Positions 9,467 to 53,367 of a stretch of DNA of 64,000 bases are shown piece by piece. The position numbers and the translations under genes were made by a program. Positions within the stretch are counted from its first letter, which is position 1. Every line of letters begins with the position of its first letter. This DNA is from Lachnospiraceae bacterium. GTDB taxonomy: Bacteria; Bacillota; Clostridia; Lachnospirales; Lachnospiraceae. The DNA lies in assembly GCA_014804365.1 (NCBI GenBank), contig JAAUZX010000051.1, positions 1 through 64,000 of the forward strand, in the 5' to 3' direction. The notes below the pieces were generated by a model. The model saw only the letters and a program-made list of their open reading frames with translations. It had not been told where the DNA came from and made no database searches.

Positions 9467-9614
9467 GGACGCGCCTGACATTATGTATTAGTCCTAAGAA
9501 CGCGCTTTCGCTCGGTTCCAAACGCAACGGTACTAAGCTCGTGAAAAACCTCGCTAAGTGCCGGCGTTTTCCAACGGTCCTTAGGACTAACACATAATAT
9601 CAGACGCTGTGCGC
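9467..9614 (+). repeat. Repeat family A palindrome, copy A1
   Basis: A roughly 148-bp imperfect palindrome filling most of the gap before moxR. CTGACATTATG at 9475-9485 and TATTAGTCCTAAG at 9486-9498 pair with 9580-9603 (22 of 24 positions by my count). The interior holds smaller pairings and a core (CTAAGCTCG, then CCTCGCTAAGTGCCG) shared with copies at 36324, 36591 (inverted) and 53231. Family function is unknown. Confidence 0.85.
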
Positions 9615-9627
9615 TGGCATAATTGTA

Positions 9628-9656
9628 TTCACTTAATGAATTTGATTATTTAGAAT
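9628..9656 (+). promoter_or_regulatory. Possible moxR promoter
   Basis: TTCACT at 9628-9633 and TAGAAT at 9651-9656 with a 17-base spacer, 20 bases before the moxR start. The -35 box matches consensus at four of six positions. It lies just outside palindrome A1. Confidence 0.45.
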
Positions 9657-9675
9657 CTATGGATATGGAGGCAAT

Positions 9676-10650
9676 ATGGATATGGCTGAGTTAGACAGGA
9701 GCAGGTTTCAGGATCCGGTATATATGGCGCAGCGGATTGGGGCATGTGAGAGAGAGATACGGAAGGGAATTATCGGGCAGGGCGAGGTTATCAGGCAGGT
9801 GATACTGGCGATGCTTACAGGAGGAAATGTGCTTTTAGAGGGTATGCCGGGATTGGGAAAGACCAGACTGGTCAGTACCATTGGTAAGGTTTTTGATCTG
9901 TCTTTTAAGAGAATTCAGTTTACGCCGGATCTGATGCCCAGCGATGTGACCGGTACGAACATTATTATTAAGAACGAGCAGGGAAGTTCTTTCTCTTTTG
10001 AGCGGGGACCGATTTTTGCGAATCTGATTCTGGCGGATGAGATCAACCGTGCCACACCCAAAACGCAGTCGGCGCTGTTGGAGGCAATGCAGGAGCATAC
10101 GGTGACTGTGGGCAATGTCAGCCATGTGCTTCATGAACCCTTCTTTGTGCTGGCGACCCAGAATCCCATAGAAAGTGAGGGAACCTATCCGTTGCCGGAG
10201 GCGCAGCTGGACCGCTTCATGTTCAAGGTGCTTGTACGGTTTCCTAGCAGGGAGGAGCTTAAGGGAATCGTCGCGCTCACAGAGGGAAGCAGGGAGCCTG
10301 TTATTGAAAAGCAGATGGACGGCGAAGGGCTTCTGGCGGCAAGAGCCCTGGTCAATCAGATTCCGATTGCGGATGCGGTGATGGATTATCTGCTGGAGAT
10401 CGTTATGGAGACGCATGCTCCTAATCCTCATATCAGAGAGGGAGCAAGTCCCAGAGCGGCACAGGCGCTGATTCGCGCCGCAAGGGCGAAGGCGTTTCTG
10501 GAAGGGCGCTTTAATGTTTCTTTTCAGGATGTGCAGGTGGCCGCATATCCTGTTCTCAGACATCGGATCATTCCGGGGTTTGAGGCCATCAGTGCGGGGA
10601 TTACAGAGGATGATATTATCACAAGGATTCTAAATAGAAAAGTAACTTAA
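9676..10650 (+). CDS. MoxR-family AAA+ ATPase
   Basis: A 324-residue AAA+ ATPase of the MoxR class. Walker A is in GMPGLGKTRLVSTI, Walker B is in LILADEINRATPKTQSALLE, and the family's sensor 1 phrase LATQNPIESEGTYPLPEAQ is present. MoxR proteins act as chaperone-like remodelers for partner proteins carrying VWA or DUF58 domains. Both partner types are encoded next (10855 and 11726), so a remodelling unit at the membrane is a well-founded expectation. The start is ATG 9676 with GGAGG a few bases upstream. The gene is separated from its neighbours on both sides by structured repeats (A1 before, B1 after), which is unusual for an operon. A second MoxR is at 37002. Confidence 0.9.
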   Translation: MDMAELDRSRFQDPVYMAQRIGACEREIRKGIIGQGEVIRQVILAMLTGGNVLLEGMPGLGKTRLVSTIGKVFDLSFKRIQFTPDLMPSDVTGTNIIIKNEQGSSFSFERGPIFANLILADEINRATPKTQSALLEAMQEHTVTVGNVSHVLHEPFFVLATQNPIESEGTYPLPEAQLDRFMFKVLVRFPSREELKGIVALTEGSREPVIEKQMDGEGLLAARALVNQIPIADAVMDYLLEIVMETHAPNPHIREGASPRAAQALIRAARAKAFLEGRFNVSFQDVQVAAYPVLRHRIIPGFEAISAGITEDDIITRILNRKVT

Positions 10651-10777
10651 AATCAGGTCTGCGCACTTGCTGCGCTGACCGTGGACGCGCCATGCAGTTT
10701 ACTGCATGTGTGCATAATATCGAAACGCCCATTTTAATTTATGATGGTGTCAAAAATGTGACAAGGGTGTTTCGATA
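10651..10777 (+). repeat. Repeat family B three-hairpin element, copy B1
   Basis: It begins right after the moxR stop and forms three hairpins. Hairpin 1: GGTC (10656-10659) with GACC (10677-10680) around GCGCA/TGCGC. Hairpin 2: CATGCAG (10691-10697) with CTGCATG (10702-10708). Hairpin 3: TATCGAAACGCCC (10718-10730) with GGGTGTTTCGATA (10765-10777), enclosing TGTCA/TGACA. Copy B2 lies at 49504-49631, with different arm bases that still pair. Confidence 0.8.
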
Positions 10778-10854
10778 CAAAACGGTCTCGACAGGCAGAT
10801 AGGAGGAAGGAGCTGTCGTGAAAAAAATGACATGACAGAACCTAATGGGGAATT

Positions 10855-11736
10855 ATGATGTTGGATGCTGTATTTTTTGACAGGTTGTCAAGACTCCGGC
10901 TGGCTATGGGACACAGAACTTCCATGAATCTGACTGGGAACCGCAAATCCATACAGAAAGGCTCTTCAATGGAATTTTCGGATTTCAGGGAGTATATGCC
11001 GGGAGATGATATACGCCACATTGACTGGAATGCCTATGGGCGTCTGGACAGGCTTTATGTGAAGGAATACATGGAGGAAAAGGAGGCGGTTGTCTCGATT
11101 CTGATTGATACCAGTGCCTCCATGAATTACGGAGCGAAGACAAAGAAAGAGCTTGCCTGTATGCTGGCAGCGGCTTTTTCTTATATGGGACTGAATAACA
11201 TGGACCGTGTCATGCTCTATGATATGCACAGAATGTATCTGCCTTTCGTGGCGGAGGGCGGGAAGAGAGCCTTACCCCGGATGGCGGACTGGCTGGAGAA
11301 GTGTTCTTTCGAGGGAACGGTAGATATTGCAAAAGCTGTCTGGGAGATTCCGGTGAAAGGACCGGGTGTGACCATTCTGATCAGCGACTTTCTGCAGGAG
11401 GCTTTTCTGGATCAGGAGCAGGAGGCTCTGACAAAGCTGCTGCGTTTTCTGGATTACAGAAAGCAAAGAACCGTATTATTGCATGTACTGGCGAAAGAGG
11501 AGCTTTCCGTGGAACTGACGGGCACACGGAATCTGATTGATATGGAGGATCAAAGTACCCTGCGTGTTACTTTGGATGCGGCCAGCATCCGGGCATACGA
11601 GAAGTCCCTGCGGGAGTTTACGGACCGGATGAGAGGGGAATGCGCAAGAGCAGGGGCATTCTATGAGGTATGCAGTACCGGGGCGGATATTTATCAACTG
11701 ATCTTTCAGGATTTAAGGATGCTATATGATATTTGA
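10855..11736 (+). CDS. DUF58 domain protein
   Basis: A 293-residue soluble protein with the DUF58 signature: MEFSDFREYMPGDDIRHIDW at residues 40-59, followed by WNAYGRLDRLYVKEYMEEKE. The C-terminal part has a von-Willebrand-A-like fold with ILIDTSASMN as a MIDAS-type DxSxS motif. DUF58 proteins are typical partners of MoxR ATPases. The start is ATG 10855 (or the adjacent ATG 10858, MLDAV); only a weak GGGG precedes them. It overlaps the giant VWA gene by 11 bases, so the two are translationally coupled. A second, longer DUF58 protein with membrane segments is at 37951. Confidence 0.85.
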   Translation: MMLDAVFFDRLSRLRLAMGHRTSMNLTGNRKSIQKGSSMEFSDFREYMPGDDIRHIDWNAYGRLDRLYVKEYMEEKEAVVSILIDTSASMNYGAKTKKELACMLAAAFSYMGLNNMDRVMLYDMHRMYLPFVAEGGKRALPRMADWLEKCSFEGTVDIAKAVWEIPVKGPGVTILISDFLQEAFLDQEQEALTKLLRFLDYRKQRTVLLHVLAKEELSVELTGTRNLIDMEDQSTLRVTLDAASIRAYEKSLREFTDRMRGECARAGAFYEVCSTGADIYQLIFQDLRMLYDI

Positions 11737-14700
11737 GAGTTTCTGGCCGCTGGTTTTTCTGGCCGCGGTTCCTATTATTATAATTTTATATCTGCTAAAG
11801 CCCAAGGGAGAGGAGCATCTGATTTCTTCCAATCTTCTCTGGCAGAAACTGCTGAAAAACGAGCAGGCTAAAACCTTCTTTGAGAAATTTGTGCACAATA
11901 TTCTCATGTATCTGCAGATTTTGATCACCGTGCTTTTGGTAGTAGCGCTGATGTCGCCATTTATCAGCACCAGGGGGCAAAGCGGCGGAAGGAAGATACT
12001 GCTTTTCGATACAAGCGGAAGTATGCAGCATATGACAGATTCAGGCAAGACCCGTCTGGAGGAGGCTGTGGCGCAGGCGTGCGATTATGTGAGGACAGCG
12101 GATAACACCCGTTTTTCTATTGTGACAGAGGATGCTCTGGGGACTAAACTCCTGGCAGTGGACATGACGGACGCAGACAGTCTGATCCGGACGTTTAACG
12201 AGATAGGGTGCAGTGACGGCGGAGGAGATCTCGCACTGGCGCAGGGGACTCTGGATACGCTTATGGGAGAGGATGCGGACAATGCGGCAGATCTGATCGT
12301 CTATACGGATGGTTCCGGCGCGGCGGGATTTGAAGAGCTGCGTGCCAGCGCGGAGAAGGAGCTTCGCGTGTTCGGTGAGGCGGCTTCCAATGTGGCGAAT
12401 GAATATACGGTATTCACCGCACGGGAGGATGGCTCTTATGATGTGATGGTGAGCCTGGTCAATTACAGTGACCGAAACGTTACCTTTGATGTCAGTCTGT
12501 ATGACGAGGGAGAGAGGCTCATTGCGCTTAGGCAGATGCAGCTAGCACCTTCGGAGAGCACATTCTGTCTGTTCGAGCAGGCGGACTGGCAGGGACAGAC
12601 CTTACAATCCTGTATTGACGGCATTACTTTTGATGGAGGCGTAAGAGAGAGCCTTGGTGCGGATAATGTTTCGGAAGCGGTGAAGAGTCCGAAAAGTCAG
12701 GTGAACGGACTGCTCGTCGGAGAGGGAAATATTTTCATTGAGAAGGCGTATCTTGCCATTACAGGAGAGAGCATTGCCAGAGCCGGCACGGATGCCTTGG
12801 ATAATTATAATGTGGTGATTTATGATGCCGGACAGGTTTCGGGTACGGAAGGAAAGAATCGGCTGATTTTCGGCGATGCCGGGAGAGAAACCGTCCGGAT
12901 ACTGGAAAATGTCGTATTGGAAATGAAGGACTGTGACCTGACCGCCGGTCTGTCCGGATTTACCATAGGAGTAAATACTGCTTATTGCTTTGCGCTTCCG
13001 GAAGGAGCGGAGAGCTTTTTGGAGTACGATGGGAAATGTGTGGGTTATTACCGGGAACTGGATGGCTGTAAAGAGGTGGTGATAGGATTCGACCCCCGGG
13101 AGTCGGATTTCCCGCTGCGGGCGGAATTCCCGGTTTTTCTGGCCAATGCCATGGTCTATCTCACAGACACCTCTTTACTTGCGGAAAATGTTTATTATGC
13201 CGGTGAGGAGATTACCCTGCAGCCCTGGGTAGCGCCGGATGAGCTTGTGTTTGACGCATGGCCGGGAAAGGCCGGTCTGTATCAGGTAGGAAACGGGGAG
13301 CAGCAGGAGACTTATGTGGTGCGCTTCCAGACCGCTACGGAGTCGGATGGCAGAGTAACCGCTGAATCTGTCGGTGACGCAGCAAATATGAAGCAGCAGA
13401 AGGTAAAGCAGGCAGTGAGAAATCTTTTTTTGCTGCTGGCACTGGCTCTTTTGGTCGTAGAATGGATCATTTATGTGCGACAGATGCGTTATCGGGGCAA
13501 GTTCTATCTGGTTGTGAGAGGTGTGGTGGCTGCGTGTGTGGTTCTGGCGCTTATCGGGATACAGGTGCATCTGGGCAGCAGCCGGACTGCCACTGTTTTT
13601 GTAGTGGATCTCTCCGACAGTAATGAGGAGCATCTTAAAGAAGCGGATAAGTACCTGCAGTCTGCGGTTGCGAAAATGCCCGCCGGCAATGCCTATGGTA
13701 TTGTGACCTTTGGAAAAAATGCGCTGGTAGAGCAGTTCCTGACAGAGGAAGGTTATTATGGAGGATTGCTGACGCTGCCGGAGAAAACGGCAACAAATTT
13801 TGAGGATGCCATATCCAAAGCGCTTACGCTTATTCCGGGAGATTACAGCGGAAGACTGGTAGTGCTCACGGACGGGAAACAGACTAGGGGCGATGTACGA
13901 CATATGGGCCAGGCGCTCTCGACAAGCAGGGCGGAGTTTCTGACTCTCTTATATGAGGATGAGGAGACGACTGATGCCTATATTGATAATGTGAGCCTTC
14001 CCACTTATCTGCATCCCGGTGATCAATATGCCATCACCGTTCTGGTGGAGAGCAATTATGATACGGATGCAGTCATTGAGCTATACAATGGAAGTTTACT
14101 TACGGCGTCAAACAGCGTTCATCTAAATAAGGGGAGCAACCGGTTTGTGTTCAGTGCGCAGGTTGACGCGAATGCGGACAGCGGCGCCATGGAGAATATC
14201 AGGGTTCGGGTGCTGGCACCGGGAGATACCTGTCAGGAGAATGATTCCTTCAGCGCCTATTCCGTGGTAGAGTCTGCGCCTAAGATTCTGCTGATTGCCG
14301 GACCGGGTGTTGATGTTTCGGCATTTGACTCAGTACTGCGTGCGGCAGGCTGCGACTATCATGTGGTCTCCGCTCTGAATGCACCGGGCGATATTAACGC
14401 CATGTTAGCCTATAAGTCGATTATTCTGGCGGACACTTATATTGATGATCTGCCCGCCGGTTTTCTGGAGAATCTGGAGACTTATGTGAAGGATTACGGG
14501 TGCGGGTTTATCTGCTGCGGCGGTGAGGACAGCTTCGCACTGGGAGGATACCGGAATACGGTGCTTGAGACAGTGCTTCCGGTAGATATGCAGCCGAGGA
14601 GTATCAATGAGATCCCTTCCATGGCTATGGTTATGGTCATCGATCATTCCGGCAGTATGATCAGTGAGGTCAAAGATTCCGGCGGCAGCAATCTGGATAT

Positions 14701-16186
14701 CGCCATCAAGGCTGCCGCTGTGGCAGTGGATAACCTGAGAGATTCGGACTATGTGGGTGTTCTGACCTTTGATGATCAGTATGAGTGGCAGGTGGAGCTT
14801 ACCACGGCGGATGATAAAGCCGCCATCAAGGATAAGATCATGCACATCAGCGAGGGCGGAGGAACTACCATTAAGCCGGCCCTTCTGGAAGCGTGTGAGG
14901 CAGTTTCGGAAAGTGAGGCAGCCATTAAGCATGTAGTGCTTTTGACGGATGGTATGGGAGAGACAACCGATTTTCAGGATGCGATAGATGCTTACAAGGC
15001 GGAGGGAATCACCCTCTCTACTGTGGCAGTTGGAAGTTTTTCCGATACGCAGCTCCTTGAAACGTTAGCCGACAGATGCGGCGGCAGATATTATTATTCG
15101 GATCTGGCCAGTGATATACCCAAAATCTTTGCCAGAGAGGTATTTCTGGGAAGTGACAGTTACATTCAAAACGGTGTATTTTCGCTTAAGGTGCAAGAGA
15201 ACCATGAGCTGACCAACAATCTTTTTGCCGATGGCTGGCCGGTGCTCTACGGGTATATTGCAGCAACCCCTAAGACGGCCTCAGTCCCTGTTATCGTATC
15301 TGATAACAAAGAAAATCCGATCCTTACGGTATGGCAGTACGGACTGGGAAGGACGGTTGCATGGAACAGCGACGTTACCGGTGAGTGGAGCGGCGCTTTT
15401 GCGGGAGAAGAGGACTATGTCCGGATGTGGAAGCGGATCGTGGATTATGCCACCGGAAATGTTGACATGGGTGAGGACAGAGTGGATGTGGTGACGGTGG
15501 GAGAACGGACAGAAGTCACTTATCAGACGGATGATTATGCAGGCGGCACGGAGATTCTGGTGACGGTTATTGATCCGGAGGGAAAGTCCACAGAGGAGAA
15601 ACTTCATGCCACAGCGCCGGGAAAATATACGGCACAGATTTCCACGCCTCAGACCGGATTATATCACTTCAATATACGCCGCAGTGTGGATGGGGAGATG
15701 CAAAGTTATCTGACAACAGCCGCCGCGGTACAGTTTTCGGATGAGTATAAATTTGATGTAAGTACGGATTCCTATTTGAAGTTTGTGGAACAATACGGCC
15801 GGATCATTACGGAGCAGGACACAGTCTTTAACCGGCTCTCTACGGGAGCAAGAGAGAGCTACGACCTGACAAACAGGCTGCTTTTCCTTGCTATCGGCCT
15901 GTTTGTCTCAGATGTGGCAATGCGGCGGTTCCAGTTTGTGCCGAAAATTGTGCAGGGAGGGCTTCACGGAAGGAGCGCAAAGCGGGAGAGGACGGTAGAA
16001 AACGCGGTAGAAAGTACGTCACAGGATATGTCAAACGCGGTAAATGATAATTTAGCAGAAAAAGATTCTTCTAAAGATTCGATGAAAAAGAGAAGAGAGG
16101 CAAAGAAATCAAAAAAGAAAGAGAAATCAGAACAGACATTGGATACTTCGCAGTTGCTAAAGAAAAAGGATGACCGGAGGATTTGA
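11726..16186 (+). CDS. Giant membrane protein with three VWA domains (BatA-like)
   Basis: A 1486-residue protein that appears to fuse two BatA/BatB-like units. The first 75 residues are a BatA-type N-terminal region (FWPLVFLAAVPIIIILYLL). VWA domain 1 has DTSGS near residue 95. Two membrane segments follow near 563-583 and 593-612. VWA domain 2 has the MIDAS motif DLSDS near 627. A glutamine-amidotransferase-like domain lies near 850-957. VWA domain 3 has DHSGS near 972. A final membrane segment lies near 1384-1402, followed by a Lys-rich cytoplasmic tail. All three VWA domains keep a DxSxS-type metal site. Known Bat proteins work with MoxR; the ligand here is unknown. The gene overlaps both the DUF58 gene before it and the upstream in-frame region of the channel gene after it. 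Confidence 0.8.
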   Translation: MIFESFWPLVFLAAVPIIIILYLLKPKGEEHLISSNLLWQKLLKNEQAKTFFEKFVHNILMYLQILITVLLVVALMSPFISTRGQSGGRKILLFDTSGSMQHMTDSGKTRLEEAVAQACDYVRTADNTRFSIVTEDALGTKLLAVDMTDADSLIRTFNEIGCSDGGGDLALAQGTLDTLMGEDADNAADLIVYTDGSGAAGFEELRASAEKELRVFGEAASNVANEYTVFTAREDGSYDVMVSLVNYSDRNVTFDVSLYDEGERLIALRQMQLAPSESTFCLFEQADWQGQTLQSCIDGITFDGGVRESLGADNVSEAVKSPKSQVNGLLVGEGNIFIEKAYLAITGESIARAGTDALDNYNVVIYDAGQVSGTEGKNRLIFGDAGRETVRILENVVLEMKDCDLTAGLSGFTIGVNTAYCFALPEGAESFLEYDGKCVGYYRELDGCKEVVIGFDPRESDFPLRAEFPVFLANAMVYLTDTSLLAENVYYAGEEITLQPWVAPDELVFDAWPGKAGLYQVGNGEQQETYVVRFQTATESDGRVTAESVGDAANMKQQKVKQAVRNLFLLLALALLVVEWIIYVRQMRYRGKFYLVVRGVVAACVVLALIGIQVHLGSSRTATVFVVDLSDSNEEHLKEADKYLQSAVAKMPAGNAYGIVTFGKNALVEQFLTEEGYYGGLLTLPEKTATNFEDAISKALTLIPGDYSGRLVVLTDGKQTRGDVRHMGQALSTSRAEFLTLLYEDEETTDAYIDNVSLPTYLHPGDQYAITVLVESNYDTDAVIELYNGSLLTASNSVHLNKGSNRFVFSAQVDANADSGAMENIRVRVLAPGDTCQENDSFSAYSVVESAPKILLIAGPGVDVSAFDSVLRAAGCDYHVVSALNAPGDINAMLAYKSIILADTYIDDLPAGFLENLETYVKDYGCGFICCGGEDSFALGGYRNTVLETVLPVDMQPRSINEIPSMAMVMVIDHSGSMISEVKDSGGSNLDIAIKAAAVAVDNLRDSDYVGVLTFDDQYEWQVELTTADDKAAIKDKIMHISEGGGTTIKPALLEACEAVSESEAAIKHVVLLTDGMGETTDFQDAIDAYKAEGITLSTVAVGSFSDTQLLETLADRCGGRYYYSDLASDIPKIFAREVFLGSDSYIQNGVFSLKVQENHELTNNLFADGWPVLYGYIAATPKTASVPVIVSDNKENPILTVWQYGLGRTVAWNSDVTGEWSGAFAGEEDYVRMWKRIVDYATGNVDMGEDRVDVVTVGERTEVTYQTDDYAGGTEILVTVIDPEGKSTEEKLHATAPGKYTAQISTPQTGLYHFNIRRSVDGEMQSYLTTAAAVQFSDEYKFDVSTDSYLKFVEQYGRIITEQDTVFNRLSTGARESYDLTNRLLFLAIGLFVSDVAMRRFQFVPKIVQGGLHGRSAKRERTVENAVESTSQDMSNAVNDNLAEKDSSKDSMKKRREAKKSKKKEKSEQTLDTSQLLKKKDDRRI

Positions 16187-16193
16187 TAGATCT

Positions 16194-17771
16194 ATGAAAG
16201 TAAGAAAGAATATCTATCTGTACTTAGTTGTAATCATAGCGTTGATTTATATTATTCTGCTAACCATACTCTACTGTTCGGAATCTGCGAACAGTGATGC
16301 AACGATTCGGACATTAGGAGATGCTTTCTGGTATTCGTTAGTGACTCTGACTACGGTAGGATATGGTGACCTGATACCGGTGACACCGCTGGGACATGCG
16401 GTAGGAATGGTTTTTTTGCTTTTGTCAGCAGGTATTATGGTGACATTGCTCGGGGCTGTAGTATCCTTTATTACCAGCGAAGGGCTGCCGTTTCTTATGC
16501 TTGGTCTGCAGCGGCACAAAAACTGGTATTATTTTGCAGACTGTGAAGTGGAGTCAAATACACTTGCTGCCAATATCTATAAGGAAGATTCAAATGCACT
16601 GATTATCTACGGAGAGAAAAGAAGCAGCCAGAGAGAGCTCCCCGATTATCCCTGTATCTATGTCAGTGCTTCGCCGGACAGGATTGTGGCGAAAAAAGAG
16701 AATACAGGTACGAAGTGTAAGGTTTTTTTGATGAAGGAAAATGACATCGGCGTAAACAGCCGGGCGGTCAACCTGCATAAATTACCGGTAGAGGTCTATG
16801 CGAGAACATCAAACGGGCAGGATAAACTCTCAGGTAATATTAATTTCTTTCACAGTGATGAATGCTGTGCCAGACAATATTGGCGGTCTAAACCACTATG
16901 CGGGCATGAAAATACCATTGTGCTCATCGGATTCGGAAACTATGGGCAAAGTATTCTGGAGAGAGCTATATTAACCAATATTATTTCTATAGAACAGCAT
17001 GTTGCATATCACATTTTCGGCAATGCGGGAGAATTTCTTGCTATACATTATCGTCTGGGCGAGCTGTTTTCACTGAACGAAGTATCCCTGACGAGAGATT
17101 CTTTAATTTTTCATGACGAAGCATGGGTAGAGAATCGGTCCCTTCTGGAACAGGCTGATCGCATTATTATCTGTGAGGATGATGAGCAGGCGGGGTGGAG
17201 CATTTTCTGGTCATTGAACAAATACTATAGAGTACCTGGCCGTATCGACCTACGCAGCAGCCGGAAGGCTCCGGGAATATCTTATTTTGGGGCAAATGAG
17301 GATATTTATACGCCGCGACAGATCATCCGTACGGATCTGAATAAAGCGGCTGTTATGATAAATGAGCTTTTTCGCAGATCTGTCTCTTACCCCACTCTCA
17401 GCTGGAATGAACTGGATGATTTTCACAGGCAGTCCAAGATTGCGGCGGCAGATCATCTTTTGATGAAGACAAGGGTTCTTCTGAATGATGAAACGATTAC
17501 AGAACTTACTGCATCTGCGGTAAAGAAGGCATATGATACATATCGTAAGACGGGGTATCTGGAGACTGCAAGAGAAAAGTACCGTAAGCTGGATCATATA
17601 CGGTGGCTCCGGTTCTATATCTTTTATAATTGGAGCTATGGTCCGGACCGTGATGATGAGGCAAAACAACACCCGATGCTATGCCCATATGAGGAGCTGA
17701 CACCTGAGCAAAGGAAGGAAAGAGATGCGGCTTGGGAACTGATGGGCAATATTTCTGTTGAACTTGAGTAA
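16194..17771 (+). CDS. Two-TM potassium-type channel with RCK-like domain
   Basis: A 525-residue protein. It has a first membrane helix (about residues 8-25), a pore loop carrying the potassium selectivity filter TVGYGD (about residues 52-57) and a second helix (about 65-90). A long cytoplasmic part follows. It contains a Rossmann-like dinucleotide motif in TIVLIGFGNYGQSILERAI near residues 240-258, as in RCK/TrkA-N ligand-sensing domains. I chose the ATG at 16194 because GGAGG lies 13 bases upstream; an ATG at 16170, inside the end of the VWA gene, is possible. The gene follows the envelope operon without a gap, so co-expression is likely. Ion selectivity is inferred from the filter only. 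Confidence 0.82.
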   Translation: MKVRKNIYLYLVVIIALIYIILLTILYCSESANSDATIRTLGDAFWYSLVTLTTVGYGDLIPVTPLGHAVGMVFLLLSAGIMVTLLGAVVSFITSEGLPFLMLGLQRHKNWYYFADCEVESNTLAANIYKEDSNALIIYGEKRSSQRELPDYPCIYVSASPDRIVAKKENTGTKCKVFLMKENDIGVNSRAVNLHKLPVEVYARTSNGQDKLSGNINFFHSDECCARQYWRSKPLCGHENTIVLIGFGNYGQSILERAILTNIISIEQHVAYHIFGNAGEFLAIHYRLGELFSLNEVSLTRDSLIFHDEAWVENRSLLEQADRIIICEDDEQAGWSIFWSLNKYYRVPGRIDLRSSRKAPGISYFGANEDIYTPRQIIRTDLNKAAVMINELFRRSVSYPTLSWNELDDFHRQSKIAAADHLLMKTRVLLNDETITELTASAVKKAYDTYRKTGYLETAREKYRKLDHIRWLRFYIFYNWSYGPDRDDEAKQHPMLCPYEELTPEQRKERDAAWELMGNISVELE

Positions 17772-17830
17772 GGGAGATCCTTTCTATTAAATTATGCGAA
17801 TATATGCGGTAATAGAGGAGAAAACAAAAG

Positions 17831-17859
17831 TTGTCTTTTATTTGTCGTGCTGATATACT
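17831..17859 (+). promoter_or_regulatory. Promoter of signalling island
   Basis: TTGTCT at 17831-17836 and TATACT at 17854-17859 are separated by exactly 17 bases, and a TG one base before the -10 box makes it an extended -10. It precedes the first hybrid kinase start (17944) by 85 bases and is the best promoter candidate for the kinase genes. Confidence 0.65.
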
Positions 17860-17943
17860 TTAAGAGGAAACGCCGGTCGGTGTCAGCAGCGCGAAATGCA
17901 GAGTCATGCGTTTAAAATTGAAAGATATGCGAGGTGCCGAAGT

Positions 17944-36323: not shown

Positions 36324-36485
36324 GGACGCGCCGGACAGTATGTAGTTGTCCTAAGGACGCGCTTCCGCTCGGTTCCAAACGCAACGGTACTAAGCTCGAA
36401 AGTTGCTTCGCAACTTTAAACCTCGCTAAGTGCCGGCGTTTTCCAACGGTCCTTATGACAACTACATACTATCCGGTGCTGTGCA
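36324..36485 (+). repeat. Repeat family A palindrome, copy A2
   Basis: A roughly 162-bp relative of A1. The left arm at 36331-36355 pairs with 36452-36476 at 23 of 25 positions. Compared with A1, paired bases change together on both arms. The central part holds an extra small hairpin (AAAGTTGC...GCAACTTT) where A1 has only GTGAAAAA. It is in the same orientation as A1. Confidence 0.85.
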
Positions 36486-36590: not shown

Positions 36591-36742
36591 GCGCAGAGGG
36601 AAGTTAATATCTTAAGAAGCCCCTTAAAAAGCGTCAGTGCTTAACGAGGTCTTGAGTTGCGAAGCAACTCACGAGTTTAGCAGCTGCTACGCTTTTTACG
36701 GAGCGGGAGCGCGGCTTCGTAGATATTAACTTCCCTCTGCGC
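36591..36742 (-). repeat. Repeat family A palindrome, copy A4 (inverted)
   Basis: A 152-bp palindrome with perfect 22-bp outer arms, GCGCAGAGGGAAGTTAATAT plus CT, at 36591-36612 and 36721-36742. Read on the minus strand it matches the A3 layout: the core with CTCGT...ACCTCGTTAAG, and inner arms AAAAAGCGT/ACGCTTTTT in place of AAAAACCGT/ACGGTTTTT. It carries an extra small hairpin around TTGCTTCGCAA, as A2 does. It points opposite to A2, 105 bases away. Confidence 0.85.
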
Positions 36743-36790
36743 GTTCGTCTTAATCAATGTATGAAAAGTGACATCAATTTACCCGTTGCA

Positions 36791-41671: not shown

Positions 41672-41721
41672 CAGAAGGTGCTTTCGCGTAACTGTGAAGA
41701 ACAGGGATCTGAGCAGTTACG
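41672..41721 (+). repeat. Repeat family C hairpin, copy 2
   Basis: The core hairpin 41687-41721 (CGTAACTGTG...CAGTTACG) shares the GAAGAACAGGG centre with copy 1 at 81-119. Here an extra upstream arm (GTAACTGTTCAGA at 41672-41684) can also pair with the same 3' arm (TCTGAGCAGTTAC), so two alternative hairpins are possible. It is about 40 bases upstream of the gene at 41762. Confidence 0.65.
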
Positions 41722-44902: not shown

Positions 44903-44905
44903 ATG

Positions 44906-44983
44906 AAGATATTCTAAGGCGTCAAAAGACTCCGCTTAAGAATATCTATGTCATCTACTGAAGAATCGCTAAGGCGATTCTTC
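44906..44983 (+). repeat. Two hairpins between clpP and clpX
   Basis: AGATATTCT (from 44907) pairs with AGAATATCT (ending about 44950), with further pairing of AAGGCG/CGCTT inside. After it, GAAGAATCGC and GCGATTCTTC (about 44960-44983) form a perfect 10-bp hairpin. Neither has a strong T tract. They could reduce read-through or protect the clpP message. Confidence 0.55.
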
Positions 44984-45028
44984 GAGTGAGAGGTTATTAT
45001 ATAGAAAAGAAAGGCATGGAACATTAAA

Positions 45029-46288: not shown

Positions 46289-46302
46289 TAATATGAATTT
46301 AT

Positions 46303-46344
46303 AACGGGACAGCCGGGAGTTTGCTCATGTATGGCTGTCCCGTT
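46303..46344 (+). terminator. Stable hairpin after clpX
   Basis: AACGGGACAGCC (46303-46314) pairs perfectly with GGCTGTCCCGTT (46333-46344). There is no run of T after it, so it is either a weak terminator or a processing or stabilising element between clpX and lon. Confidence 0.5.
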
Positions 46345-46417
46345 CTAGACTCATAGGACAAGGACTGCAGTTGGCAACCATACTGCGTGACAGCAGGAAA
46401 AATATAGGGATAAAGAG

Positions 46418-48850
46418 ATGAGTTTTTTAAATAGGAAAATACAAATTAATAAGGAACAAAATAATCCGGAAGCAGCCGGGTATGCGGATATACCTGTGCA
46501 GAATACGCTTCCGGCCGTGGCGCTGCGCGGGTTGACGATTCTTCCGGGCATGGTGATACACTTTGACTTAAACAGAGACAAGTCGATCGCCGCGGTAGAA
46601 CAGGCGATGCTCTCAGACCAGAAGCTGTTAGTAGTGACACAGAAGAATGCGGGCGAGGAAGAGCCGGCATTCGAGGATGTCTATGATGTGGGGACTGTCG
46701 TGGTCATCAGGCAGGTGACTAAACTGCCGGAGCATACGCTGCGTGTGCTGGTGGAGGGAAAATCGAGAGCGGTATTATACCGGTTTACGAGGGGTTATGA
46801 CTATATTATGGCGGAAATGTCATACGAAAACGATGATATGACAGAAGTGTCTGCCGTTGAGGAAGAGGCAATGACCAGAACGGTCAAGGAAACTTTTTCA
46901 GCATATTACACGTGTTTTCCCAAAGTGGGCAAGGCAGTGGCGGATCAGATCGAGGAGAAGATGACGCTGGGCAGACTGCTCGACAGCATTACGATCAACA
47001 TGCCTCTTACGGTAGCGGATAAACAGAAGATTCTGGAGGCGCTGTCGGTCAAGGAGCGTTTTGAGGTACTGACAGGGATATTGATGCGGGAAGTGGAGAT
47101 CGTTCATATCAGGAATGATCTGTCTAAGAAGATCAGAGGCCGGATCGATAAGAATCAGAGGGATTATATTCTGCGGGAACAGTTACAATATATTAAAGAA
47201 GAACTGGGCGAGAACACCGTGGACTCCGATTTGGAGCAGTTTGAGAAAAACGTGGAGGAACTGGAGGCTTCGGAGGAGATCAAGGAGAAGATCCGTAAGG
47301 AGATCGCGCGTTATAAGAATGTGGCGGGAAGCCATTCGGAGGCCGCGGTGGAACGGGCTTATATCGAGACGCTGTTAGAGCTGCCGTGGGATAAGGCGTC
47401 GAAGGACAGTGAAGATCTCGTGCGCGCCGAGGAAATTCTGAATGCGCAGCACTATGGGCTTAACAAGGTGAAGGAGCGTATTCTGGAATATCTGGCGGTG
47501 CGGGTTCTGACTGGCAAAGGGCAAAGTCCGATCATCTGTCTGGTGGGACCGCCGGGAACAGGTAAGACATCTGTGGCAAAAAGTGTGGCGGAAGCGCTTC
47601 AGAAGAAATATGTGCGGATCTGCCTGGGCGGTATCCGTGATGAGGCAGAGATCAGAGGACACCGCAAAACCTATGTGGGAGCCATGCCGGGCAGGATCAC
47701 CAACGCCGTCAGGCAGGCCGGAGTCAAGAATCCGCTACTGTTGTTAGATGAGATAGATAAGGTGAGCAATGATTATAAGGGCGATCCGGCCTCGGCACTG
47801 CTGGAGGTGCTGGACGGAGAGCAGAACAGCGCGTTTCGCGATCATTATGTGGAGATACCGATGGATTTGTCGGAAGTATTGTTTATTGCTACGGCCAATG
47901 CCGTGGACTCGATTCCGAAACCGCTTCTGGACCGTATGGAGATTATCGAGGTAAACAGTTATACGGCAAATGAGAAATTCCATATTGCCAGAGAGCATCT
48001 GGTGGAGAAGCAGCTTAAGAAGAACGGCATCGAGGCGGAAAAACTTAAGTTTACGGATGACGCTTTGCGTGATATGATACGTTTATACACGCGAGAGGCG
48101 GGCGTGCGTGGACTGGAGCGTCAGATTGGCAAGGTATGCCGTAAAGTGGCAAAGCATATACTGGAAGAAATGCAGGCTGCGGAGTCGCAGACTGACAGTG
48201 GGTCGGAAGTCAATATTACCTCTGATGATCTGGAGCAGTATCTCGGTAAACCGAAATACATGCAGGACAAGGTTAACGACAAGGATGAGGTCGGTATTGT
48301 GCGCGGACTTGCATGGACCAGCGTGGGCGGTGATACGTTGCAGATAGAAGTCAATATTATGCCGGGTGACGGAGAGATTGACCTAACTGGTCAAATGGGT
48401 GACGTGATGAAAGAATCCGCAAGGATTGCCATGAGTTATGTGCGATCCGTCAGTGAACGGTATCAGATTTCGGAGGAAATGTATACCGAGAAGGACTTTC
48501 ATATCCATATTCCGGAAGGCGCCGTGCCCAAGGACGGACCGTCTGCCGGGATCACTTTAGCCACGGCGATACTGTCGGCGGTGACAGGGATTCCTGTGCA
48601 CGCGGACATAGCGATGACTGGTGAAGTCACTCTGAGGGGCAGGGTGCTTCCGATCGGCGGATTGAAAGAAAAGATCCTTGCAGCCAAGACAGCGGGGGTT
48701 AAAACAGTTCTGGTACCGGAGGAAAACGCCAAGGATATCGCGGAACTGGATCAGGAGATTACGGATGGGCTTACGATACATATGGTGAGTCATATGGAAC
48801 AGGTAGCGGAATATGCGTTGGCAGCGTGTGACGAGAATACTGTAAAGTAA
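46418..48850 (+). CDS. lon: ATP-dependent protease Lon
   Basis: An 810-residue LonA protease. It has an N-terminal substrate-binding domain (LPAVALRGLTILPGMVIHFD), an AAA+ domain with Walker A GPPGTGKT, and a C-terminal protease domain with the catalytic serine in PKDGPSAGITLA and the catalytic lysine in GLKEKILAAKTAGV. Length is as expected for LonA. It degrades misfolded and short-lived regulatory proteins in the cytoplasm. It lies 130 bases after clpX and is followed 44 bases later by ysxC. Confidence 0.97.
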   Translation: MSFLNRKIQINKEQNNPEAAGYADIPVQNTLPAVALRGLTILPGMVIHFDLNRDKSIAAVEQAMLSDQKLLVVTQKNAGEEEPAFEDVYDVGTVVVIRQVTKLPEHTLRVLVEGKSRAVLYRFTRGYDYIMAEMSYENDDMTEVSAVEEEAMTRTVKETFSAYYTCFPKVGKAVADQIEEKMTLGRLLDSITINMPLTVADKQKILEALSVKERFEVLTGILMREVEIVHIRNDLSKKIRGRIDKNQRDYILREQLQYIKEELGENTVDSDLEQFEKNVEELEASEEIKEKIRKEIARYKNVAGSHSEAAVERAYIETLLELPWDKASKDSEDLVRAEEILNAQHYGLNKVKERILEYLAVRVLTGKGQSPIICLVGPPGTGKTSVAKSVAEALQKKYVRICLGGIRDEAEIRGHRKTYVGAMPGRITNAVRQAGVKNPLLLLDEIDKVSNDYKGDPASALLEVLDGEQNSAFRDHYVEIPMDLSEVLFIATANAVDSIPKPLLDRMEIIEVNSYTANEKFHIAREHLVEKQLKKNGIEAEKLKFTDDALRDMIRLYTREAGVRGLERQIGKVCRKVAKHILEEMQAAESQTDSGSEVNITSDDLEQYLGKPKYMQDKVNDKDEVGIVRGLAWTSVGGDTLQIEVNIMPGDGEIDLTGQMGDVMKESARIAMSYVRSVSERYQISEEMYTEKDFHIHIPEGAVPKDGPSAGITLATAILSAVTGIPVHADIAMTGEVTLRGRVLPIGGLKEKILAAKTAGVKTVLVPEENAKDIAELDQEITDGLTIHMVSHMEQVAEYALAACDENTVK

Positions 48851-48894
48851 GCATTCTCCATATAGAGTAAGCGCCTGTGGAAATGAGGAGTGTT

Positions 48895-49491
48895 ATGGTT
48901 ATCAAGAATGTGAATTTGGAGACGGTGTGCGGCATTACGAGTAAACTGCCGGAGAATAAACTGCCGGAGATCGCCTTTGCAGGTAAGAGCAATGTGGGTA
49001 AATCCTCACTGATCAACGGACTTATGAATCGTAAGTCTCTGGCGCGCACCAGTTCCCAGCCGGGCAAGACCCAGACCATCAACTATTATAATATCAATGA
49101 GCAGCTGTATTTCGTGGATCTGCCGGGATACGGTTATGCCACTGCGAATGAGCAGGTGAAAGCACAGTGGGGCAAGATGATCGAGGATTATCTGCATCAG
49201 TCAAGGCAGATCCGGGCCGTATTTCTGCTGATTGATATCAGACATGTACCGTCGGAGAATGACCGGATCATGTATAACTGGATACTGGACAGAGGCTATA
49301 AGCCGATCATTATCGCGACGAAACTGGATAAGATCAAGAGGAGCCAGATCGCAAAACAGGTTAAACTGATAACTGACACACTTGACGTAGTAGATGACAC
49401 AACTGTCATACCATATTCGTCCCTGTCAAAACAAGGCAGGGAGGAAATCTATGAATTGCTGGACGGGATATTGTGCGAGGAAGGAGTATGA
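48895..49491 (+). CDS. ysxC: Ribosome biogenesis GTP-binding protein YsxC/EngB
   Basis: A 198-residue GTPase needed for assembly of the large ribosomal subunit. G motifs are present: G1 GKSNVGKSS, G3 DLPGYG, G4 TKLDK. The start at ATG 48895 (MVIKNVNLETV) follows GAGGAG; other in-frame ATGs a few codons upstream are less well placed. The lon-ysxC order is conserved in Firmicutes. The gene is followed after about a dozen bases by repeat element B2. Confidence 0.95.
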   Translation: MVIKNVNLETVCGITSKLPENKLPEIAFAGKSNVGKSSLINGLMNRKSLARTSSQPGKTQTINYYNINEQLYFVDLPGYGYATANEQVKAQWGKMIEDYLHQSRQIRAVFLLIDIRHVPSENDRIMYNWILDRGYKPIIIATKLDKIKRSQIAKQVKLITDTLDVVDDTTVIPYSSLSKQGREEIYELLDGILCEEGV

Positions 49492-49503
49492 AAAGAAAGT
49501 CTA

Positions 49504-49631
49504 AAAATCAGCTCTGCGCACTTGCTGCGCTGAGCGTGCCGCGCCATGCTGCTTGCAGCGTGTGTGCATCATGTACTTGCACCGTACTTTTCATGGGAAT
49601 TTGTGTCAGGAATGACATGGAGGTGCAAGTA
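49504..49631 (+). repeat. Repeat family B three-hairpin element, copy B2, covering a ribosome binding site
   Basis: It has the same three-hairpin layout as B1. Hairpin 1: GCTC (49511-49514) with GAGC (49532-49535) around GCGCA/TGCGC. Hairpin 2: CATGCTG (49545-49551) with CAGCGTG (49556-49562). Hairpin 3: TACTTGCACC (49574-49583) with GGTGCAAGTA (49622-49631), enclosing TGTCA/TGACA. The 3' arm of hairpin 3 includes part of the GGAGG at 49619-49623 and the first base of the start codon at 49631. Confidence 0.8.
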
Positions 49632-50923
49632 TGAAGCCATCATTCAAGACATATGTTAAAGTCATATTGAATTTGTTGACTGCATTGGTCGCTTTACTTT
49701 TGTGTATTTTTCTGCTGCCGAGGTGCCTTATTTTCTTCATGCCGTTTATCATCGGCTGGATCATTGCGTTGATTGCTTCTCCCGTGGTCAGATTTTTTGA
49801 GGAGAGGCTGAAAGTAAGGCGTAAGGGAGCTTCGGTGATCGTAATCGTTGCGGTGCTTGCAGGGGTGATCCTGCTAGTCTACGGGATCGGTTCAACGCTG
49901 GTGCGTGAGGGCATTAATTTTGTCAATGAACTGCCTGCGATGTGGGAGAGCATCGTGGCAGAGCTTAATGAGGTAGGCAGAAATCTGGAAGGTGTGTATA
50001 ACAGATTGCCTGCAGACATGCAGAATACGTTGGATAATATAGGCGCCGAGATGGGAGAATATTTCGGAAGTTTTATGGAAGGGGCCGGAACGCCGACCTT
50101 TCAGGCGGTAGGAAACGTAGCGAAGCAGCTGCCGGATATATTCTTGGGTGTGGTAATGTGTATCCTGTCGGCGTACTTTTTCGTAGCGGATAAGAGTTAT
50201 ATGTCGGATATGGTGAAGAAATATGTTCCGGATTCCGTCAGATATCGCTGTAATCTGGTCCGCAGAAGTCTGCGCAATGCGGTGGGCGGTTATTTCAAGG
50301 CGCAGTTTAAGATCGAGTGCTGGGTGTATGTGCTGCTGGTGATCGGGCTTCTGACACTACATGTGCGCTATGCACTTCTGGTAGCGCTGGGAATTGCATT
50401 TCTGGATTTCCTGCCGGTGTTCGGGACGGGCACGGTCATGATTCCGTGGGCGGTTATCGAGATATTGAATAAAAATTATAAGATGGCGGTGGGACTGCTC
50501 ATTATATGGTGTGTGGGACAGCTTGTCCGTCAGATGATCCAACCTAAGATCGTGGGAGATTCCATGGGCATGGAGGCGATTCCGACCTTGTTTCTTCTTT
50601 TCATAGGATACAAGGTGGCGGGAGTGGTCGGCATGATTTTTGCGGTGCCGATCGGAATTATCGTTGTCAATCTGTATGAAGAGGGTGTGTTTGACACTAC
50701 GAAGCAGAGCATAGAGATTCTGGTGGCGGGATTCAATAAATTTCGTAGGATTCGCCCGGAGGACACGGCGATTGTCGAAGAATATGAGAGAGAAGTGGAG
50801 ACGACTTACCAGGAGGAAATGCAGTCTGCCGAGGAGCAGGAGCGTGAACTGGCAGATGCCGCACGGATCAAGCTGGAGGAGCCGGCGATCATTAAGAAGA
50901 TTATAAAAAGGAAGAACGAATAA
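49631..50923 (+). CDS. AI-2E family transporter (YtvI-like permease)
   Basis: A 430-residue membrane protein of the AI-2E/PerM family with about eight hydrophobic segments. Family features include RCLIFFMPFIIGWIIALIAS near the N-terminus, a central extracytoplasmic region, and the C-terminal pattern QPKIVGDSMGMEAIPTLFLL, as in YtvI. The tail is charged and coiled. Family members have been proposed as transporters or antiporters; the substrate here is unknown. ATG 49631 uses GGAGG at 49619-49623, which lies in the 3' arm of the last hairpin of element B2. This predicts translation that depends on the hairpin opening. Confidence 0.85.
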   Translation: MKPSFKTYVKVILNLLTALVALLLCIFLLPRCLIFFMPFIIGWIIALIASPVVRFFEERLKVRRKGASVIVIVAVLAGVILLVYGIGSTLVREGINFVNELPAMWESIVAELNEVGRNLEGVYNRLPADMQNTLDNIGAEMGEYFGSFMEGAGTPTFQAVGNVAKQLPDIFLGVVMCILSAYFFVADKSYMSDMVKKYVPDSVRYRCNLVRRSLRNAVGGYFKAQFKIECWVYVLLVIGLLTLHVRYALLVALGIAFLDFLPVFGTGTVMIPWAVIEILNKNYKMAVGLLIIWCVGQLVRQMIQPKIVGDSMGMEAIPTLFLLFIGYKVAGVVGMIFAVPIGIIVVNLYEEGVFDTTKQSIEILVAGFNKFRRIRPEDTAIVEEYEREVETTYQEEMQSAEEQERELADAARIKLEEPAIIKKIIKRKNE

Positions 50924-50960
50924 CATAAATCTAAGATGACATAGGAAAGAAGGAACAGAG

Positions 50961-51962
50961 ATGCAGGTTACGGTTTATAATTGCAGGGCTTTTGATGAGA
51001 AGGAGCTTTTTACCGAATATGCTAAGGAATTGGGAATAGAGCTCGTGTTGTGTACGGATGCGCCGACGATGGATAATGTGTCGTTATGTCGGGGCAGTCG
51101 TTGTGTGGATGTGATTACGTCTAAGATCGACGCGGAATTGATGCGTGCTTTTCAGGAGAACGGCGTGGAGTACATTACGACCAGAACCATCGGTTATGAC
51201 CATATTGATCTGGAAGCGGCGAAAGCGTGCGGGATTAAAGTGGGCAATGCGCCTTACGGACCTCACGGCGTGGCGGATTATACGGTTATGCTGATCCTCA
51301 TGTCCATCCGTAAGATGGGCGCGATTCTGGGGAGAACCGCGCTGCAGGATTATACGCTGGCGGGGTTAAACGGAAGAGAATTAAAAGATTTGACCGTAGG
51401 AGTCATCGGTACGGGAAGGATCGGCGCAACGGTGGTACAGAGCCTGTCCGGTTTCGGCTGTCGTATTCTGGCGTATGATCTTTATGAAAAAGAAGAAATC
51501 AGGCAGTATGCCGAGTATGTGCCGCTTGAGCGGATCTGGAAAGAAGCGGATGTGATCACGCTGCATACGCCGCTTACCGAGGAGAATCATCATCTGATCT
51601 GTGCAGATACGATAGCGCAGATGAAGGACGGCGTGGTGATCGTCAACACGGCGAGAGGAGCGCTGATCGATTCCGATGCTTTTATTGAGGCGATCGAGAA
51701 CGGCAAAATCGGTGCGGCGGGATTAGATGTTGTAGAAAATGAGTTTGGTTTATACTATTATGACCACAAGTCGGATATATTAAAGAATAGGGAACTTGCT
51801 CTTTTAAGAAGTTTTCCGAATGTGACGGTTTCCCATCATATGGCCTTCTATACGAAAAATTATGTAGAGACCGTAGTTAAGGACTCTCTTATGAGCTGTA
51901 AGCGATATATGGAAGGGCAGGAGAATCCGTGGGAGATTAAATTTGATAAGGAGAATGCGTGA
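50961..51962 (+). CDS. D-isomer-specific 2-hydroxyacid dehydrogenase (D-lactate dehydrogenase type)
   Basis: A 333-residue NAD-dependent oxidoreductase. The Rossmann motif GVIGTGRIGATVV lies near residues 148-160. The substrate-binding Arg is in NTARGALIDSDAF, and the catalytic His is in VSHHMAFYT, a form typical of D-lactate and related aryl-lactate dehydrogenases. It would reduce a 2-keto acid such as pyruvate to a D-2-hydroxy acid in fermentation; the exact keto acid is not decided by sequence. It starts at ATG 50961 after AAAGAAGGAA and overlaps the next gene by one base. Confidence 0.88.
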   Translation: MQVTVYNCRAFDEKELFTEYAKELGIELVLCTDAPTMDNVSLCRGSRCVDVITSKIDAELMRAFQENGVEYITTRTIGYDHIDLEAAKACGIKVGNAPYGPHGVADYTVMLILMSIRKMGAILGRTALQDYTLAGLNGRELKDLTVGVIGTGRIGATVVQSLSGFGCRILAYDLYEKEEIRQYAEYVPLERIWKEADVITLHTPLTEENHHLICADTIAQMKDGVVIVNTARGALIDSDAFIEAIENGKIGAAGLDVVENEFGLYYYDHKSDILKNRELALLRSFPNVTVSHHMAFYTKNYVETVVKDSLMSCKRYMEGQENPWEIKFDKENA

Positions 51963-52513
51963 TGCAAAAAGGAAACCCGTGGAAGGTTTGGATGAAATTC
52001 TTTTTTGCTGTCTACATTTTGTTTGTGATCAAGGTCATTATTTTCAAGTACCCGATAGAGCAGCTTCGAGCGATTGCTGATACATGGCAGAGAAGCGTTA
52101 TATTGGAAGGACTGGGAACGGCTAACTTTACGCCGTTTAAAACAATTAAAATGTATATCGTATATGCCCATAAGCTGAACAGCGTAGAAAATCTGGCAGG
52201 CAATATACTGGTTTTTATGCCGTTTGGCTTTCTGATTCCGTTTGTGTCCGAGGAGGTGCGAAGCTTTCCGGCAGTTATGCTGAATGCTTTCGTGTTTGTG
52301 CTGGGTATTGAGATGTTCCAGTTATTCAGCGCTTTCGGGGCTTTTGACGTGGACGATATCATGCTGAACTGTCTGGGAGCTGCATTGGGATACGGCTGCT
52401 ATAAGGCGGTGTATCTGCTGTGGTATCGACAGCGCGCAGGGGCATTGGCAGGAGAGATAGAATGCATAGTGGAAAGAGGCGCCAAGGTCAGCGGTGTCAA
52501 TGAGGTAAGATGA
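51962..52513 (+). CDS. VanZ-like family membrane protein
   Basis: A 183-residue membrane protein with four hydrophobic segments. The VanZ pattern is visible in NLAGNILVFMPFGFLIPF, FVFVLGIEMFQLFSAFGAFD and the following DVDDIMLNCLGAALGYG. VanZ-like proteins are linked in some species to teicoplanin tolerance, but most have no known role. ATG 51962 overlaps the dehydrogenase stop and uses AAGGAG eight bases upstream; a GTG one codon earlier is less likely. Confidence 0.87.
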   Translation: MQKGNPWKVWMKFFFAVYILFVIKVIIFKYPIEQLRAIADTWQRSVILEGLGTANFTPFKTIKMYIVYAHKLNSVENLAGNILVFMPFGFLIPFVSEEVRSFPAVMLNAFVFVLGIEMFQLFSAFGAFDVDDIMLNCLGAALGYGCYKAVYLLWYRQRAGALAGEIECIVERGAKVSGVNEVR

Positions 52514-52592
52514 TGATCATTTAGGAATCTTGATGATTTCTTAGTGCAGATAGCAAAAAGTAAGAGTATCCTAAAGACGGGAGGGGATAGGT

Positions 52593-53183
52593 ATGGGTAA
52601 CTTATTGAAGAGACTAAAGACAAATATCGTGATTTCCGCCATACTGTGTGTCGTGCTGGGCATTGTGCTGGTAGTATGGCCGGATCTGTCCATGCAGATC
52701 GTATGTATCGCGATCGGGGCAGTACTGCTGATCGGCGGCGGCGTGCGGCTGGCGGTGTACTTCACGAACAAAGACGGCAGTATGTATGCGCAGATGAGTC
52801 TGATTACGGGCATCGTACTGGCAGTGGTAGGTATCTGGATTCTGATTAAGCCGGATAAGGTGTTGGCAATTATTCCGATCATTGTCGGCATCGTGATCGT
52901 ACTGCACGGAATCAATGATCTGCAGCAGGCGGTCTCACTGTACAAGGATAAGTATGACAAATGGTGGGTAGCGCTGATCTTAGGTGTGCTTACGATAGGA
53001 TTCGGCGTGCTGTTGATCTGCAGGCCTTTTGAGGCGCTGGATACGGTAGTTATGCTGATCGGACTGTTCCTGATCTATGACGGGCTGTCGGATATCTGGA
53101 TCGTGTCGAGGATCTACCGGACGGCTAAGGCGTTGAAGCAGGAGGCGGAGGCGCTGGATGTGGTGGCGAAGGAGGTTAAGTGA
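52593..53183 (+). CDS. DUF308/HdeD-like membrane protein
   Basis: A 196-residue protein with six hydrophobic segments in three similar hairpin pairs, matching the DUF308 (HdeD) repeat architecture: LGIVLVVWPDLSMQIVCIAI, GIWILIKPDKVLAIIPIIVG and GVLLICRPFEALDTVVMLIG. Each unit shows the same W/KPD/RPF turn. Family members are membrane proteins of unknown biochemical role. ATG 52593 follows GGGAGGGG. It stands 79 bases after the VanZ-like gene and before palindrome A3. Confidence 0.85.
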   Translation: MGNLLKRLKTNIVISAILCVVLGIVLVVWPDLSMQIVCIAIGAVLLIGGGVRLAVYFTNKDGSMYAQMSLITGIVLAVVGIWILIKPDKVLAIIPIIVGIVIVLHGINDLQQAVSLYKDKYDKWWVALILGVLTIGFGVLLICRPFEALDTVVMLIGLFLIYDGLSDIWIVSRIYRTAKALKQEAEALDVVAKEVK

Positions 53184-53230
53184 AGGGGAGCGGAAGGGCT
53201 GTTACCGTTTAGTGTTTGACTAAGATGTCC

Positions 53231-53367
53231 GCACAGATGGAAGTTAATATCTACGGAGCCGCGCTTTCGCTCCGTAAAAACCGTAGCGGACACTAAGCTC
53301 GTGAAATACCTCGCTAAGTGCCGACGGTTTTTAAGGGGCTCCTTAAGAAATTAACTTCCATCTGTGC
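53231..53367 (+). repeat. Repeat family A palindrome, copy A3
   Basis: Perfect 18-bp outer arms, GCACAGATGGAAGTTAAT at 53231-53248 and its complement at 53350-53367. Inner pairs are GGAGCC/GGCTCC and AAAAACCGT/ACGGTTTTT, with a local ACGGAG/CTCCGT hairpin. The core CTAAGCTCGTGAAA...CCTCGCTAAGTGCCG is shared with A1. It fills much of the 336-base gap before the gene at 53520; a promoter accounts for the rest. Confidence 0.88.

Follow-up and report, generated by a model that had tools for sequence, protein, structure and literature searches.

A miniature inverted-repeat transposable element with a conserved three-way-junction fold in the Lachnospiraceae

The window analyzed here is a stretch of 64,000 nucleotides from a Lachnospiraceae bacterium (GCA_014804365.1, contig JAAUZX010000051.1, positions 1 to 64,000 of the forward strand). 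It contains four copies, A1 to A4, of a palindromic repeat that was singled out in a first-pass annotation made from the letters alone and is referred to as family A. Family A is a miniature inverted-repeat transposable element (MITE) with an unusual conserved fold, one that is absent from Rfam. Re-reading the window bore out all four palindromes, with A3 in the orientation opposite to that of A1, A2, and A4. The copies and their recognizable parts are listed below. The anatomy is given for the strand on which hairpin P4 carries a GNRA loop, which is the minus strand in A1, A2, and A4, and "model match" denotes the part matched by a covariance model of the family.

9467-9614, minus strand: A1; model match 9480-9598; GNRA loop on the minus strand; now without clear terminal repeats
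9531-9560, minus strand: apical core hairpin of A1
36324-36485, minus strand: A2; model match 36337-36470; apical loop with a 15-nt stem-loop insert
36388-36432, minus strand: apical core hairpin of A2
36591-36742, plus strand: A3; model match 36599-36734; inverted relative to the other copies
36638-36682, plus strand: apical core hairpin of A3
36755-36772, minus strand: outer terminal repeat of A3, GTCACTTTTCATACATTG on the minus strand; two mismatches to the pattern; repeat on the other side not clear
53201-53209, plus strand: left terminal inverted repeat of A4, GTTACCGTT; end type as in other repeat-bearing copies
53231-53367, minus strand: folded part of A4; model match 53239-53359
53263-53270, minus strand: P4 hairpin of A4 with its GNRA loop, GC-GAAA-GC on the minus strand
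53291-53320, minus strand: apical core hairpin of A4, CACTTAGCGAGGT..CGAGCTTAGTG on the minus strand
53385-53393, minus strand: right terminal inverted repeat of A4, AACGGTAAC

Comparison of the sequences confirmed that the outer arms are distinct between the A1/A2 type and the A3/A4 type, and the two-sided differences between the outer arms of A1 and A2, first put at three or more, were read as four (three T-A to G-C and one A-T to T-A). A pair of arms quoted earlier as an example of joint change is correct in its sequences, but the labels of A3 and A4 had been exchanged: AAAAACCGT/ACGGTTTTT belongs to the copy at 53231 and AAAAAGCGT/ACGCTTTTT to that at 36591. Measured by its terminal repeats, A4 extends over 53201-53393 and is therefore longer than the palindrome described at first; no target duplication is recognizable at this copy. 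The remark that no transposase lies nearby agrees with the ten neighboring open reading frames (ORFs) to which the comparison was limited, none of which matches a Pfam transposase family and two of which match nothing.

Folded as single-stranded DNA, the copies reach -36.1 (A1, z -5.1), -48 (A2, z -8.8), -55.5 (A3, z -12.4), and -44.9 kcal/mol (A4, z -10.7), and for each of them 0 of 200 shuffles folded as well as the real copy (A1 and A4 were folded on both strands, A2 and A3 on one). The interior of the element is a long palindrome with a conserved, tight three-way junction that joins stems P2, P3, and P4. The outer arm, P1, keeps its pairing while its letters are free; it comprises 22 bp in 29 copies of the source genome and 14 in the model. 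P2, of 6 bp, lies between P1 and the junction. P4 is a hairpin of two base pairs, GC-GNRA-GC, between a conserved A and a conserved G; its loop is GNRA in 203 of 217 distinct sequences (GAGA 76, GAAA 69, GGAA 21, GGGA 17, GCAA 17, and GCGA 3). P3 is a long bulged stem with a U·U mismatch, which is kept in 209 of the 217, and usually a tandem G·A near its tip; its loop starts with GU and can carry an extra 15-nt stem-loop. The tandem G·A was at one stage regarded as universal and is not a defining feature, because paired bases replace it in G061 (genus g26; L292, L313). A scan of the window against Rfam at gathering scores gave no family match to the copies, the sole match at a lax E-value was a 17-bit hit of MIR847 to A3, far under the cut-off of that family, and the element copies of six other loci likewise gave no match.

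The covariance model, built from 16 copies, has 56 matches in G000, the source genome of the window (E ≤0.001; 150 of 621 candidates scored), so that the four palindromes are not the only copies in their host; BLAST returned 24 matching pieces with A2 as the query and 48 with A4. These counts are approximate because G000 is a draft (3.83 Mb in 91 contigs, 84.9% complete, 6.95% contaminated) in which some contig ends fall inside copies. A DNA search located the element in 30 of 61 genomes, every one among the 37 of the genus, and a model search of the order (14 candidates scored per genome) in 21 of 246 genomes, all within the 33 listed for its own family. Among 398 genomes of the phylum five were positive, four of them from its own family and the fifth, G638, from another family with four copies (L360-L363). 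The copies of G638 share the architecture; by eye, three of them have A-T in place of the G-C pair next to the tandem G·A. Scanning named genomes for the core pattern gave at least 120 stretches; among the matches listed, the labels were Lachnospiraceae, with Robinsoniella, Hungatella, Butyrivibrio, Faecalicatena, Dorea, and others, which we take to be genera of this family, or loose names (Clostridia, Eubacteriales, bacterium, and one "Clostridiaceae bacterium"). The matches are apparently almost confined to one family, the Lachnospiraceae. A 201-bp query found no match in plasmid and phage collections, and two stretches of viral contigs with the short core pattern were set aside, the fold being absent by eye and the model giving no match.

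Terminal inverted repeats (TIRs) of 10-14 bp, mostly GTWACWNTTC..., are present in copies of several species, and some copies share flanks outside the hairpin. Among 119 elements with readable flanks, five (L050, L102, L120, L135, and L187) combine a 10-bp TIR (at most two mismatches) with a perfect 8-bp target site duplication (TSD), and a TIR with a perfect duplication of 9 bp or of 7 bp was found in two each; mixing the flanks of the 119 elements gave 0 for all three lengths. If one mismatch is permitted in the duplication, eight elements qualify against one in the control, and 41 of the 119 have a loose TIR match at both ends, against 16 in a reversed control. L257 and L364 are further full copies with a TIR and a perfect 8-bp TSD. 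Six genomes contain full copies with GTTACT- or GTAACA-like ends and the 8-bp duplication. From end to end, L135, L187, L050, and L257 measure 185-197 bp, and all TSD-bearing copies about 174-236 bp. A separate terminal repeat was considered for copies of the A1/A2 type and dropped, as L244 ends in a GTTACTG-type repeat. Of 12 fetched loci orthologous to that of A4, five were inspected, and the site is empty in four relatives (G001, G012, G013, and G026) and occupied in G027. In view of the TIRs, the target duplications, and the empty orthologous sites, family A is almost certainly a non-autonomous MITE that makes 8-bp target duplications and whose transposase is supplied in trans; its mobility is shown, and the transposase itself was not found. 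Among the roles suggested at first, that of a transposase-mobilized palindrome is thus the one that these observations support. A chromosome-organizing or protein-binding site, with a role for the host at fixed places, would suit a repeat of many, mostly intergenic copies, but the A4 site, the only one compared, is empty in the four relatives, the folds seem to decay after insertion, and nothing in favor of a chromosome-organizing site was found here; such a role is hardly credible.

The same fold is found inside another end type, with CACGGAAATC-like TIRs and a 9-bp TSD, in L147 and L194; the distinction of two end classes is drawn from these two elements, and the ends of L194 mismatch at 3 of 12 positions. 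Because L187 (8 bp) and L194 (9 bp) belong to one Robinsoniella assembly, a single genome seems to hold both end types. GTTACT-like ends and perfect 8-bp TSDs also mark other MITEs (L188, at 2265-2411, L242, L245, L276, and L283), inside which the covariance model found no fold; by eye, the last four contain different internal hairpins. In the window itself, a second small palindromic repeat of 44 nt (CGTAACTG...CAGTTACG) occurs at 74-117 and 41678-41721 in two copies that are 86% alike, and its ends look like the terminal repeats of the family A MITE. A 38-nt repeat with a small hairpin lies near ORF ends at 10646-10683 and 49501-49538 (92% alike).

The tip of the fold is also found on its own, conserved letters included, in doublets with a spacing of 44-49 nt. 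The 120 loci L116-L235 contain 23 such pairs, and the orientation of the stand-alone hairpins to genes varies. Between rpsH and rplF, two or more core hairpins are present by eye in three genomes (L143, L159, and L191), in differing orientations (rplF was called as L6 by Pfam, and S8 was read from the translation); this gap is a recurrent place within the ribosomal protein operon. Further stand-alone hairpins lie near rRNA and tRNA genes (L158, L185, and L154, the last read from the sequence). Short, conserved, imperfect hairpins that form doublets and are mostly intergenic would be expected of repetitive extragenic palindromes (REPs) or bacterial interspersed mosaic elements (BIMEs) moved by a Y1 transposase (REP-associated tyrosine transposase, RAYT), and Y1 matches do occur in four related genomes, in a frame of ~260 aa that is presumably RAYT-like. 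However, the exact core pattern was present at 0 of 30 Y1 loci (up to ~1.5 kb on each side), and 11 of the 18 genomes tested have no Y1 match, including G000, the host in which such a transposase had been proposed as a thing to look for. The GTAG and CGTC tags are not enriched at the doublet hairpins (1 and 1 of 41, against shuffled expectations of 3.0 and 3.5). Counted without a control, they stand no more than 30 nt from the folded MITE part in 33 and 30 of 200. Moreover, the chemistry of Y1 transposases is incompatible with target site duplications, such as those of family A, and mobilization by a RAYT is very unlikely.

The pairing noticed among the four window copies extends to the family, in which paired bases co-vary beyond shuffles. 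In a MAFFT alignment of the 16 copies, two-sided change was observed at 31 of 44 pairs (shuffled mean 16.5). For 90 model matches from many genomes, in an alignment that was fitted to the covariance model and hence leans to it, two-sided change was observed at 41 of the 44 pairs (31.4 in shuffles) and in 933 cells (254 in shuffles), pairing is intact in 93.5% of the cells, and the covariation score reaches 0.555, against 0.154 in shuffles (0 of 500 as high) and at most 0.104 when the arms are slid. Among 40 distinct copies of the source genome, the closest (21 pairs differing at 0-3 positions) show 14 one-sided changes and one two-sided change in paired columns; with greater distance the one-sided changes plateau at ~0.08-0.13 per base pair and the two-sided ones climb to 0.44, a curve that is a pattern and not a test because copy pairs are not independent. 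There is good reason to think that the fold is selected in lineages that are still moving and not after insertion, when it would decay one side at a time.

Selection on the fold, which the first-pass annotation read directly from the paired changes, is likely but is not forced by them, because template switching between the arms can also yield paired changes. In such quasipalindrome correction, which PMC8794818 describes as a mechanism for RNA stems, one arm is copied onto the other and the covariation is mutational, with no need for selection. The occupied A4 site of G027 (L318) may provide an example: P3 is gone, the right arm is now the exact complement of the left, and the copy looks like a natural product of template switching by snap-back replication. 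Yet the closest copies differ one-sidedly (14:1), and conversion of the arms should remove mismatches such as the U·U that is so widely kept. If the arms were converted slowly once a copy had inserted, P1 could still be shaped in this way and the curve mimicked, but the U·U and the junction, both of which are kept, would be expected to disappear. As the source of the covariation, template switching is accordingly improbable.

Whether the fold acts as DNA or RNA was approached by scoring G·U against A·C on the GNRA strand of 203 sequences. The totals are 196:140, with 99:50 in P1, 37:14 in P2, 59:74 in P3, and 1:2 in P4; states common with the nearest neighbor give 27:26 and private states 90:57. 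At loci found by the core pattern alone the ratios are 40:19 (P1), 18:8 (P2), and 29:41 (P3), and because the excess in P1 and P2 persists there, an effect on the single strand is not dismissed, despite a possible bias of the model. Eleven tRNAs from the same loci gave 20:0 as a control, in which ARAGORN itself may favor G·U, and G·U makes up 2.4% of the standard pairs in the element versus 8.0% in these tRNAs. As for the flanking genes, 103 cores of other genomes, including a few doublets, were placed with a simple ORF caller: 22 are same/same, 22 anti/anti, 16 convergent, and 14 divergent, eight lie inside ORFs, and the rest lack an ORF on one side. In G000 the 28 cores (one inside an ORF) comprise 4 same/same, 15 anti/anti, 0 convergent, and 8 divergent, a skew by which the GNRA strand is mostly antisense and which is not seen in the other genomes. 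The MITE might carry a structured RNA, with its GNRA hairpin, tandem G·A, and three-way junction, whose action in transcripts would be, for example, to protect, process, or insulate the mRNA at the insertion site. The prevalence of GNRA in P4, the G·U excess in P1 and P2, and the stand-alone hairpins between rpsH and rplF and beside rRNA and tRNA genes are what such a role would predict. On the contrary, the rarity of G·U, its deficit relative to A·C in P3, the near-equality of neighbor-shared states, the even orientation elsewhere (22:22) and mostly antisense one in G000 (4:15), and the absence of an Rfam match at the copies speak against it, and we regard a function as RNA as rather unlikely. 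The loops look RNA-like, as the early suggestion of a structured RNA would have it, but G·U pairs are scarce and no orientation preference is seen in the other genomes.

Taken as a whole, the observations are probably best explained by a MITE with a selected interior fold, which may act during mobilization. Several points weigh against this explanation. No transposase with family A ends was found with the exact TIR pattern in 8 + 29 = 37 genomes, a search of draft genomes that diverged ends would escape. The matches of that pattern are MITE-sized pairs, lone matches, and one 2.1-kb pair in G007, which was rejected as an insertion sequence because it consists of two MITEs flanking ORFs that resemble an ABC transporter by eye. 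Longer TIR pairs in 1.68 Mb of loci enclose apparent host genes and no transposase; two of them, considered as autonomous elements, contain by eye rhamnulokinase and DnaK/DnaJ, and ten ORFs beside lone TIR matches resemble, by eye, ABC-F, transketolase, and other proteins of the host, or else frames that are spurious. In addition, 112 of the 119 elements have no recognizable TIR with a perfect 8- or 9-bp TSD, and L249, which lacks P3, has a perfect 8-bp TSD; judging from this one sequence, P3 may not be needed for movement, provided that its loss did not come afterwards. Template switching could account for part of the paired changes, and the mild 2:1 excess of G·U in P1 and P2 on the GNRA strand, as well as GNRA itself, would also fit RNA.

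How a fold selected during mobilization would work can be outlined conditionally. On balance we lean to the view that the folded single strand with its GNRA loop would be recognized by a factor other than the end-binding transposase, since the same fold is present in two TIR/TSD classes and the tip occurs alone as doublets. As a guess, folding may act during mobilization by drawing the ends of such a short and stiff DNA towards each other and by exposing the binding hairpins when the GNRA strand is single-stranded in replication. It is also tempting to speculate, although we consider it doubtful, that the fold with its three-way junction serves as a portable signal in single-stranded form and is not tied to one transposon. 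MITEs with different ends would each have adopted it, and the tip would spread alone in doublets in ribosomal operons, because a factor specific to this bacterial family recognizes the folded strand as RNA or single-stranded DNA. Such a signal, if real, would represent a novel type of mobile, structured nucleic-acid motif.

Family A has the terminal repeats and target duplications of MITEs in general, and resembles the enterobacterial repetitive intergenic consensus (ERIC), Correia, and repeat unit of pneumococcus (RUP) MITEs in being short, palindromic, non-autonomous, intergenic, and of high copy number. It differs from these three in that a three-way junction with GNRA and U·U is kept across genera while the letters of the outer arm are free, and in that the fold is found in two TIR/TSD classes. 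With the REP/BIME and RAYT system (PMC3733652), it shares dispersed, conserved, imperfect hairpins and doublets, but it has no tag enrichment or neighboring Y1 gene and does have target duplications. Like an IStron (PMC4227781), it is a DNA transposon that carries a folded module of nucleic acid; unlike IStrons, it shows no Rfam group I intron at the copies searched and is too short for the genes of an insertion sequence. The element is not described in the open-licence titles or abstract openings among the part of the literature matches that was surveyed.

These results call for caution, in that strong covariation in repeated palindromes does not necessarily denote a functional RNA. Bacterial MITEs are usually seen as debris between two recognized ends. 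In family A, by contrast, an interior fold is kept across many genera despite the change of its letters, which suggests that the fold itself aids the spread of the element; with ~56 copies in one genome and many natural variants, it constitutes a directly testable system.

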